64,000 nt of DNA, taken from positions 1 to 64,000 of the forward strand of contig JAKAGZ010000002.1 in NCBI GenBank assembly GCA_021815365.1. The letters are read 5' to 3'. The position numbers were made by a program, and so were the translations under genes. This DNA comes from Bacteroidota bacterium. Lineage in GTDB: Bacteria; Bacteroidota; Ignavibacteria; Ignavibacteriales; Ignavibacteriaceae. Numbering within the stretch: the stretch's first letter is position 1; every line of letters begins with the position of its first letter. Shown one piece after another: positions 51,441 through 52,257 of the stretch. The notes under the pieces are model-generated. The model searched no databases, was not told where the DNA came from, and was given only the letters and a program-made list of their open reading frames with translations.

Positions 51441-51535
51441 ACTGACGATCGGCAGTTAAACCAGCATACCGTTAAGCCTGTGATCTCCCTTCCGGCTTGT
51501 CGGGACCTGGGTACTTTACCAGCTATTTAGTCAGC
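51441..51535 (-). pseudogene. Degenerate tRNA-Thr relic with palindromic insertion
   Basis: On the - strand the 95-base stretch starts GCTGAC, then TAGCTGGTAAAGTAC (D-arm remnant), and ends CTGGTTTAACTGCCGATCGTCAGT, which mirrors the T-arm and 3' acceptor of the intact tRNA-Thr 76 bases upstream. The acceptor arms still pair. In place of the anticodon arm is a longer GC-rich stretch (TCCCGACAAGCCGGAAGGGA) followed by ~15 extra bases; the D-stem no longer pairs. I infer a dead copy of tRNA-Thr altered by palindromic DNA. Confidence 0.55.
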
Positions 51536-51610
51536 ATATAATTTTACCAATTTCTTGAAAGAACTTTTTCCAGAATTTTTAATTTCAGGTTCATCTTTTA
51601 TTTCTCTTCG

Positions 51611-51683
51611 AGCTGACGACCGGGATTGAACCGGTGACCTCATCCTTACCAAGGATGTGCTCTACCAACTGAGCTACGTCAGC
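51611..51683 (-). tRNA. tRNA-Thr(GGT)
   Basis: Cloverleaf on the - strand: acceptor GCTGACG/CGTCAGC, D-arm GCTC/GAGC, anticodon arm CATCC-TTGGTAA-GGATG with anticodon GGT, T-arm ACCGGTTCAATCCCGGT and discriminator T. Confidence 0.96.
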
Positions 51684-51754
51684 AATTAATTTTTGCTAGA
51701 GCAATCGGTCTTTAACATTTCAAACTTATTTATACTTGTTAACAATTCTATCTG

Positions 51755-51828
51755 AGCGGGAGACGGGACTCGAACCCGCGACCAACAGCTTGGAAGGCTG
51801 TGACTCTAGCCAACTGAGTTACTCCCGC
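51755..51828 (-). tRNA. tRNA-Gly(TCC)
   Basis: Cloverleaf on the - strand: acceptor GCGGGAG/CTCCCGC, anticodon arm ACAGC-CTTCCAA-GCTGT with anticodon TCC, T-arm GCGGGTTCGAGTCCCGT and discriminator T. It is the parent-like copy of the adjacent relic at 51901. Confidence 0.96.
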
Positions 51829-51900
51829 GTCTTTTCATTAAGAAACACTCTGCTTACCACTTTGTCTCAGTACTGTTTCTTACAAAGGAATTTTCCCTAA

Positions 51901-51979
51901 GAACCCGCAACCAATCCCGATGGAATCGGGATGACTCTAGCCAACTGACCTGCTTGCCGGTAGGCAGGATTACTCCCGC
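51901..51979 (-). pseudogene. tRNA-Gly relic remodelled by two palindromes
   Basis: Segments identical or nearly so to tRNA-Gly(TCC) are interrupted. The 5' part GCGGGAGTAA and TCAGTTGGCTAGAGTCA match, but the 20-base palindrome CCTGCCTACCGGCAAGCAGG splits the D-stem. The anticodon arm is replaced by ATCCCGA-TTCCA-TCGGGAT (51914-51932), a 7-bp hairpin that still shows TCC in the loop. TTGGTTGCGGGTTC matches the variable/T region, after which the T- and acceptor 3' halves are lost. It cannot form a tRNA and is read as a pseudogene. The remaining bases of 51829-52173 contain no other feature. Confidence 0.8.
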
Positions 51980-52173
51980 AATTTTAGTCAATGTCTAAAA
52001 TCACTTCAGAATTTTTCACCCAATTTAAAATTGCTGATCAGGAAGTTTACACATTTTCGATTACTTTATTAACAATTTTTAAAGGAACTATTAAATTTTT
52101 ACAACAGAATGATTTTCACAAAAGGGCAAAAAAAATTGTATTTTTATAACACTAATAAAGTTCAAATCACCAG

Positions 52174-52257
52174 TGGGCGGCGAGGGATTCGAACCCCCAA
52201 AGGCGTCAGCCAACGGATTTACAGTCCGCCCCGGCTCTCCAACTCCGGCGTCCGCCC
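52174..52257 (-). tRNA. tRNA-Tyr(GTA)
   Basis: Class II tRNA of 84 bases on the - strand: acceptor GGGCGG./.CCGCCC, anticodon arm CGGA-CTGTAAA-TCCG with anticodon GTA, a long variable arm (TTGGCTGACGCC region), T-arm GGGGGTTCGAATCCCTC and discriminator A. First gene of the cluster, 20 bases after a promoter -10 box. Confidence 0.95.

Follow-up and report, generated by a model that had tools for sequence, protein, structure and literature searches.

What process leaves, directly beside a working tRNA gene, a truncated copy of that gene whose arms have been interrupted or exchanged for palindromes? The window (the whole stretch of DNA analysed, 64,000 nucleotides or 64 kb) raises this question at positions 51901-51979 of the minus strand, where direct reading and local alignment identify a tRNA-Gly(TCC) relic. 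The relic extends from the 5' acceptor strand to the T-loop (..GGGTTC); beyond this, the 3' half of its T-arm and the acceptor strand at the 3' end are missing. Read from 51979 to 51901, it consists of GCGGGAGTAAT-[CCTGCCTACCGGCAAGCAGG]-TCAGTTGGCTAGAGTC-[ATCCCGATTCCATCGGGAT]-TGGTTGCGGGTTC, with the two palindromes set in additional brackets. Local alignment to the neighbouring tRNA-Gly(TCC) gives a score of 27.7, compared to 9.5 ± 2.0 (maximum 18.6) for 500 shuffles, and the relic proposed by an earlier sequence-only reading is correct in both sequence and coordinates. Neither ARAGORN nor Rfam calls a tRNA at 51901-51979, and the relic does not amount to a complete cloverleaf.

The notion that this locus never held an intact tRNA-Gly can be set aside, as the working copy of tRNA-Gly(TCC) is located next door (51754-51828, minus strand; ARAGORN, Rfam). 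The 72-bp spacer between relic and intact gene (51829-51900, minus strand) contains neither a nuclease ORF nor a trace of one, and no GIY-YIG match was found anywhere in the 64-kb window. The same-strand upstream neighbour of the relic is an intact tRNA-Tyr(GTA) (52173-52257), while an intact tRNA-Thr(GGT) is found at 51610-51683 (both minus strand; ARAGORN, Rfam). Between tRNA-Thr and tRNA-Trp, local alignment reveals a second, strongly decayed relic resembling tRNA-Thr(GGT) (51442-51535, minus strand). Its score of 17.6, against 10.1 ± 1.9 and a maximum of 16.2 for 500 shuffles, is weaker than that of the Gly relic, and it retains traces of a TCCCGACAAG..CGGAAGGGA palindrome.

The D-side palindrome of the Gly relic, CCTGCCTACCGGCAAGCAGG (51949-51968, minus strand), comprises 20 bp and is a near-pure insertion ahead of the D-arm. 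It is imperfect, with 8 of 10 pairs formed, and belongs to a dispersed family with the genome-wide consensus CCTGCCTGCCGGCAGGCAGG. The 20-base palindrome itself had been recognised from the outset, but it was then thought to split the D-stem, whereas it is located between the acceptor stem and the D-stem. The anticodon-arm palindrome ATCCCGATTCCATCGGGAT (51914-51932, minus strand) is perfect, with an 8-bp stem and a 3-nt TCC loop in the form ATCCCGAT-TCC-ATCGGGAT. It stands in place of exactly the 17-nt anticodon arm ACAGCCTTCCAAGCTGT with TCC retained in the loop, as originally described.

Each of the two palindromes occurs only once within the 64-kb window. Across the genome to which the window belongs, the D-side family is found at 7 places allowing at most 1 mismatch, and matches occur in 14 of 31 related genomes (0 control matches). 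The core CCCGA(N2-11)TCGGG is present at 68 places in the same genome, compared to 12 for the reversed control. These palindromes are thus dispersed and not unique to the locus. Members of the D-side family are also inserted into relics of tRNA-Leu(caa) and tRNA-Pro elsewhere, and such CCTGCC-type palindromes are pure insertions, unlike the stem-replacing ones.

Among the 34 distinct tRNA genes scanned in this genome, 12 have a relic within 0.9 kb. A thirteenth case, an apparent tRNA-Leu(caa) relic, was rejected as a scaffold-gap assembly artefact. A palindrome with a stem of at least 6 bp is present in 11 of the 12 relics, compared to 3.3% of random 25-mers. Five of the 12 loci (tRNA-Pro, -Lys, -Met, initiator-Met and -Ser) contain an ORF for a ~90-aa GIY-YIG nuclease between relic and intact tRNA. 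These five share one anatomy, in which an intact tRNA is accompanied by the nuclease ORF and by an incomplete tRNA copy whose anticodon, D or T arm contains a palindrome; at the tRNA-Pro locus, further relics are found on the other side too. The remaining seven (tRNA-Arg, -Ile, -Ala, -Val, -Leu(taa), -Pro(tgg) and -Gly) are without an ORF. At L103 2440-2500 (G000:C82), a 3' tRNA-like fragment, GGACGCGGGTTCGACTCCCGCCACCTCCACCA, was also observed on its own, without an intact neighbour in the stretch inspected; it may represent a tmRNA end or another relic.

Tandem relic arrays do occur (L155, L145, G056), as would be expected from ordinary tandem tRNA duplication followed by decay, with palindromes arising by chance. 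This explanation is hardly credible and is refuted as a full account by the excess of palindromic relics over random 25-mers, the recurrence of palindromes at exact arm boundaries and the association with a nuclease.

The position of the palindrome varies with the tRNA concerned. It takes up the whole anticodon arm in Pro, Lys, Met, Val and Ala relics, half of that arm in Asn and Ser-gct relics, the D-loop in Leu, Ser-tga and Arg-cct relics, and the T-arm in Asp, Ser-cga and Glu relics. That both relics of a locus, 5' and 3', carry an identical palindrome was considered as a general rule and rejected, as an exact match between them occurs in no more than 9 of 33 cases, which are themselves partly redundant. 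Within tRNA sequence, palindromes are confined to partial copies adjoining an intact gene, and intact tRNA genes are not invaded. The likeness originally drawn to the palindromic elements of Rickettsia is therefore not sustained. Those elements likewise place palindromes within structured or coding sequence; however, they are longer, lie in reading frames and invade otherwise intact functional genes, whereas here only extra tRNA pieces are hit and a frequent partner is a small GIY-YIG gene, which was out of reach of the earlier reading. Fragments of tRNA beside tRNA genes are typical of attachment sites, and the relics could be regarded as scars of tRNA-using integrases or genomic islands. That origin is barely conceivable given the palindromic replacement arms, the presence of 5'-end as well as 3'-end fragments, and a sole cargo consisting of a GIY-YIG ORF of 80-110 aa.

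The relationship between palindrome loops and their parental tRNAs was determined for 84 non-redundant relics with an assigned parent. The parental anticodon is located within the inner part of the palindrome in 23 cases versus 8.8 after permutation, loop sequence shared with the parent amounts to 276 versus 199 ± 10, and 35 relics share at least 4 nt with the parental loop where 9 are expected, the significance of these figures being somewhat overstated as related sequences are not fully independent. The shared-loop signal persists after removal of the Lys and Ala relics. Examples include the tRNA-Ala loop ATGGCAT, converted to ATGGCAAT, and the tRNA-Arg loop CTTCTAA, converted to ATTTCTAAT. 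As the palindrome loops keep parental anticodon-loop sequence, it follows that stems were replaced and loops partly kept, and stem replacement in tRNA relics is well supported. The TCC in the loop of the Gly relic fits this general rule and is not, as a class, mere chance. Of the two readings initially offered for it, chance or stem-wise replacement, the second is upheld.

A hairpin that is altered on both sides of its stem and yet paired, with a stem unlike the parental one and a loop drifting from it, could also be the product of selection at the RNA level. The relic would then be co-transcribed with the working tRNA, the two being on the same strand and separated by some tens of bases; a strong and dissimilar hairpin would prevent its arm from mispairing with the working tRNA, or its processing as a tRNA. 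We consider this improbable. Under such selection, one would not expect a shared YCCCGA/TCGGGR core in different isotypes and phyla, nor D-loops that carry a dispersed 20-mer as a pure insertion. Furthermore, the complete Gly relic folds little better than shuffled sequences (z -1.76), for which reason it was also rejected as a folded functional RNA.

The same locus was inspected in relatives by comparing the Tyr-Gly-Thr-Trp tRNA cluster across 29 related loci. The spacer is relic-free in most of these, while tRNA-Gly relics occupy the same Tyr-[relic]-Gly slot in four genomes from three other genera. The boundaries of these four are identical (gagtc/AT..AT/tggt, with slashes marking the boundaries) but the palindromes differ. 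G056 contains three copies of a Gly relic with the palindrome ATCCGTCAACCGACGGAT, and G083 has relics with ATCCCGCTTAAAGCGGGAT on both sides of the tRNA, where a GIY-YIG ORF separates the intact tRNA-Gly from the second of them. The G045 relic carries ATCCCGATCCAATCGGGAT as well as a D-loop palindrome, and is accompanied by two tRNA-Thr relics; that of G058 carries a palindrome of the ATCCGGC form.

A similar comparison can be made at tRNA-Pro(cgg)-yajQ. The site is empty in G047, G046, G052 and G065, where the tRNA is followed by yajQ, and occupied in G003 (relic, intact tRNA, ORF, relic, yajQ) and, in the same form, in G045. Both this site and the Tyr-Gly-Thr cluster thus display patchy presence at a fixed position, with occupied and empty alleles. 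The intact tRNA-Pro of the occupied G003 site is identical to the tRNA of the empty G047 site, hence recognition must involve the flanks if homing is the right explanation. Protection of the rescue tRNA through a recoded anticodon arm was rejected at tRNA-Pro, the same tRNA being present in occupied and empty genomes of one genus.

The distribution of the nuclease was determined using the Pfam PF01541 profile in 41 family genomes, with no selection for palindromes. It was found that 62 of 106 small GIY-YIG loci have a tRNA no more than 600 bp away, almost always on the same strand, compared to the ~2% expected by an estimate from tRNA density. A collinear partial tRNA copy is present on the far side of the ORF in 58 of 73 tRNA/ORF-side comparisons (0 of 73 when shuffled). 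Tandem arrays of ORF and relic are common among the family genomes. In L298 (G018:C1:118100-124200) and L345 (G001:C1:2943500-2952900), five nuclease-plus-relic units occur in tandem, with periods of 450 and 315 bp. Nuclease ORFs often reach or enter the relic at their end (e.g. L098, L102 and L326), and the tRNA piece may supply their stop or start region.

To our knowledge, UPF0213 proteins have no link to tRNA genes. The tRNA-linked nuclease is a UPF0213-like small GIY-YIG protein, with PDB 1YWL (E 3e-8) and 1ZG2 (E 6e-6), both UPF0213 entries named hypothetical, as the closest solved relatives. NCBIfam models gave no match for any of three tRNA-linked nucleases tested. Pfam PF01541 matches at sister loci, and at least 181 of 197 GIY-YIG domains retain the catalytic Y, Y, G, R and E. 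Tandem nuclease copies have dN/dS values of 0-0.14 (synonymous/nonsynonymous changes of e.g. 6/0, 9/2, 10/3 and 19/13). As these copies differ almost only at synonymous sites, the proteins are maintained by purifying selection. A nuclease tree, based on a single domain of 84 columns and with many forks open, groups nucleases of different genera by tRNA isotype (33 changes compared to 89.3 shuffled, with 0 of 200 shuffles as low). For the same rows, isotype requires 24 changes and genus 46. Such clustering by isotype is a prediction of target-specific homing.

To survey other lineages, the pattern TAGAGCNYCCCGA(N2-11)TCGGGRNGG was scanned over 84,980 species, yielding at least 118 loci. The matches listed comprise 92 from Bacteroidota, 4 from Ignavibacteriota and others from ten further named phyla, so that palindromic tRNA relics are present in no fewer than 12 named phyla, with Bacteroidota predominating. 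The loci of related genomes suggest that the window itself derives from Bacteroidota or Ignavibacteriota. Among the matches listed, an intact tRNA is found within 1 kb at 91 of 118 and a GIY-YIG ORF at 47 of 118. That most relics are without an ORF within 1 kb (7 of 12 in the window's genome; 71 of 118 among the matches listed) counts against an element model. On three IMG/VR contigs classed as viral (L432, L434 and L435), a palindromic tRNA relic is found together with a GIY-YIG ORF, which could be due to phage carriage or to bacterial sequence.

Nuclease ORFs are also found away from tRNAs. When all 44 such loci were inspected by eye, most ORFs proved to have dispersed palindromes or inverted repeats typical of their clade on their flanks; by clade, the flanking palindromes at tRNA-free loci L278-L377 are GTCATTCCCGCGAAAGCGGGAATC and GTCATCCTGAA..TTCAGGAT; GTCATCCTTCGACAAGCTCAGGATGAC; and CCCCGTGAGATA..TATCTCACGGGG. 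This arrangement favours the main rival reading, in which the palindromes are mobile units akin to REP repeats, mobilised by the small GIY-YIG proteins much as REPs are by RAYT transposases, and insert themselves into hairpins, tRNA arms among them. Once hit, a tRNA would survive only with a second copy, hence the restriction to extra copies. The excess of the CCCGA core over its control, the swapping of stems with loops kept, and the same core lengthening the 16S helix-44 tip in the window's genome (with a variant in G065) all point in this direction. Nevertheless, nuclease lineages track tRNA isotype and not palindrome type, different palindrome families occur in one nuclease context, and the fixed order of intact tRNA and ORF with partial copies is left unexplained. 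We therefore regard this reading as rather unlikely; the homing element and REP-like mobile palindromes may, however, be two sides of one system. REP/RAYT systems similarly combine short, dispersed palindromes with a single-domain nuclease-like gene that they flank, but with a Y1 transposase in place of GIY-YIG, and the tRNA relic with replacement tRNA is without parallel there (PMC2817692, PMC3116915).

The 16S rRNA gene of the window's genome (L104 1520-1580, 2520-2560) has TCCCGA/TCGGGA and CCCCGA/TCGGGG stems at hairpin tips. The helix-44 tip is CCCCGATTTATCGGGG in this genome, CTCCGATTTATCGGAG in G065 and mostly a short CCGCAAGG in other relatives. The idea that these tips prove palindrome invasion was rejected: that of helix 44 is compatible with it, but the other grades into ordinary variation.

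We propose that the window relic is probably the nuclease-less remnant of a tRNA-targeting homing-type element of the GIY-YIG class. The complete element, as present at other tRNAs, consists of a tRNA fragment with palindrome, an intact tRNA, the ~90-aa GIY-YIG ORF and a second tRNA fragment with palindrome, or of one half of this arrangement. The existence of the element and its target specificity are well supported; we infer the cleavage of tRNA genes, homing, the role and origin of the palindromes, and a former ORF at the window relic. In the proposed mechanism, the nuclease would cut the uninvaded tRNA gene of a particular isotype, and repair would copy the element in via flanking tRNA homology. 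The element would bring a complete tRNA, allowing the host to survive, while pieces of the original gene would be displaced and stay alongside. Here, a palindrome would replace or split the arm in which the cut is presumed to fall, removing the target and leaving the host dependent on the tRNA copy of the element. Later loss of the nuclease ORF would leave a bare relic as seen in the window.

Homing by itself does not account for palindromes with conserved stems in displaced pieces. The identity of the intact tRNAs in occupied and empty sites, the bare spacer beside the window relic and the rarity of matching 5' and 3' palindromes likewise count against the proposal. More tentatively, it is possible that widespread minimal selfish elements, each a ~90-aa GIY-YIG nuclease with a rescue tRNA, disable the host tRNA by exchanging one of its stems with that of a mobile palindrome while the loop is kept, thus addicting the host to the copy of the element. 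If true, hairpin stem exchange would represent a new kind of DNA change.

Half of this design is shared with T4 SegB, a small free-standing GIY-YIG gene in a tRNA cluster and one of the homing endonucleases of this type in T-even phages. Located between tRNA-Arg and tRNA-Ile, SegB is active and required for preferred inheritance of the tRNA region; its listed target is the tRNA intergenic region, and free-standing enzymes cut hundreds to thousands of bp away (PMC2988022). The passages on SegB in that article describe no displaced tRNA pieces or palindromes. The elements here occupy bacterial chromosomes and form many isotype-specific lineages. A second likeness is to the mORFs of fungal mitochondria, found in atp6, atp9, cox2 and nad3, with Allomyces atp6 as the first case and one of them GIY-YIG. 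There, an endonuclease ORF in an essential gene brings a replacement gene end and leaves the displaced native end downstream (PMC3630166). They differ in that protein genes and foreign donor ends are involved and, in the sections of the article concerned, no palindromes are described in the displaced part (PMC3630166), while the present elements affect tRNA genes and displace pieces on either side.

A search of open-licence papers found no description of a palindromic tRNA relic/GIY-YIG system. Together, the palindromic tRNA relics and small GIY-YIG genes look like an undescribed selfish element targeting bacterial tRNA genes. Such genes are essential and are not known to us, or from the papers searched, to be targeted routinely by minimal homing genes of bacteria. 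If true, the proposal would explain one group of tRNA pseudogenes, together with small GIY-YIG ORFs, in Bacteroidota and further phyla, and would make available numerous isotype-specific nucleases directed at tRNA genes. How short dispersed palindromes originate, with the stem conserved and the loop free, could furthermore be tested directly by strain comparison.
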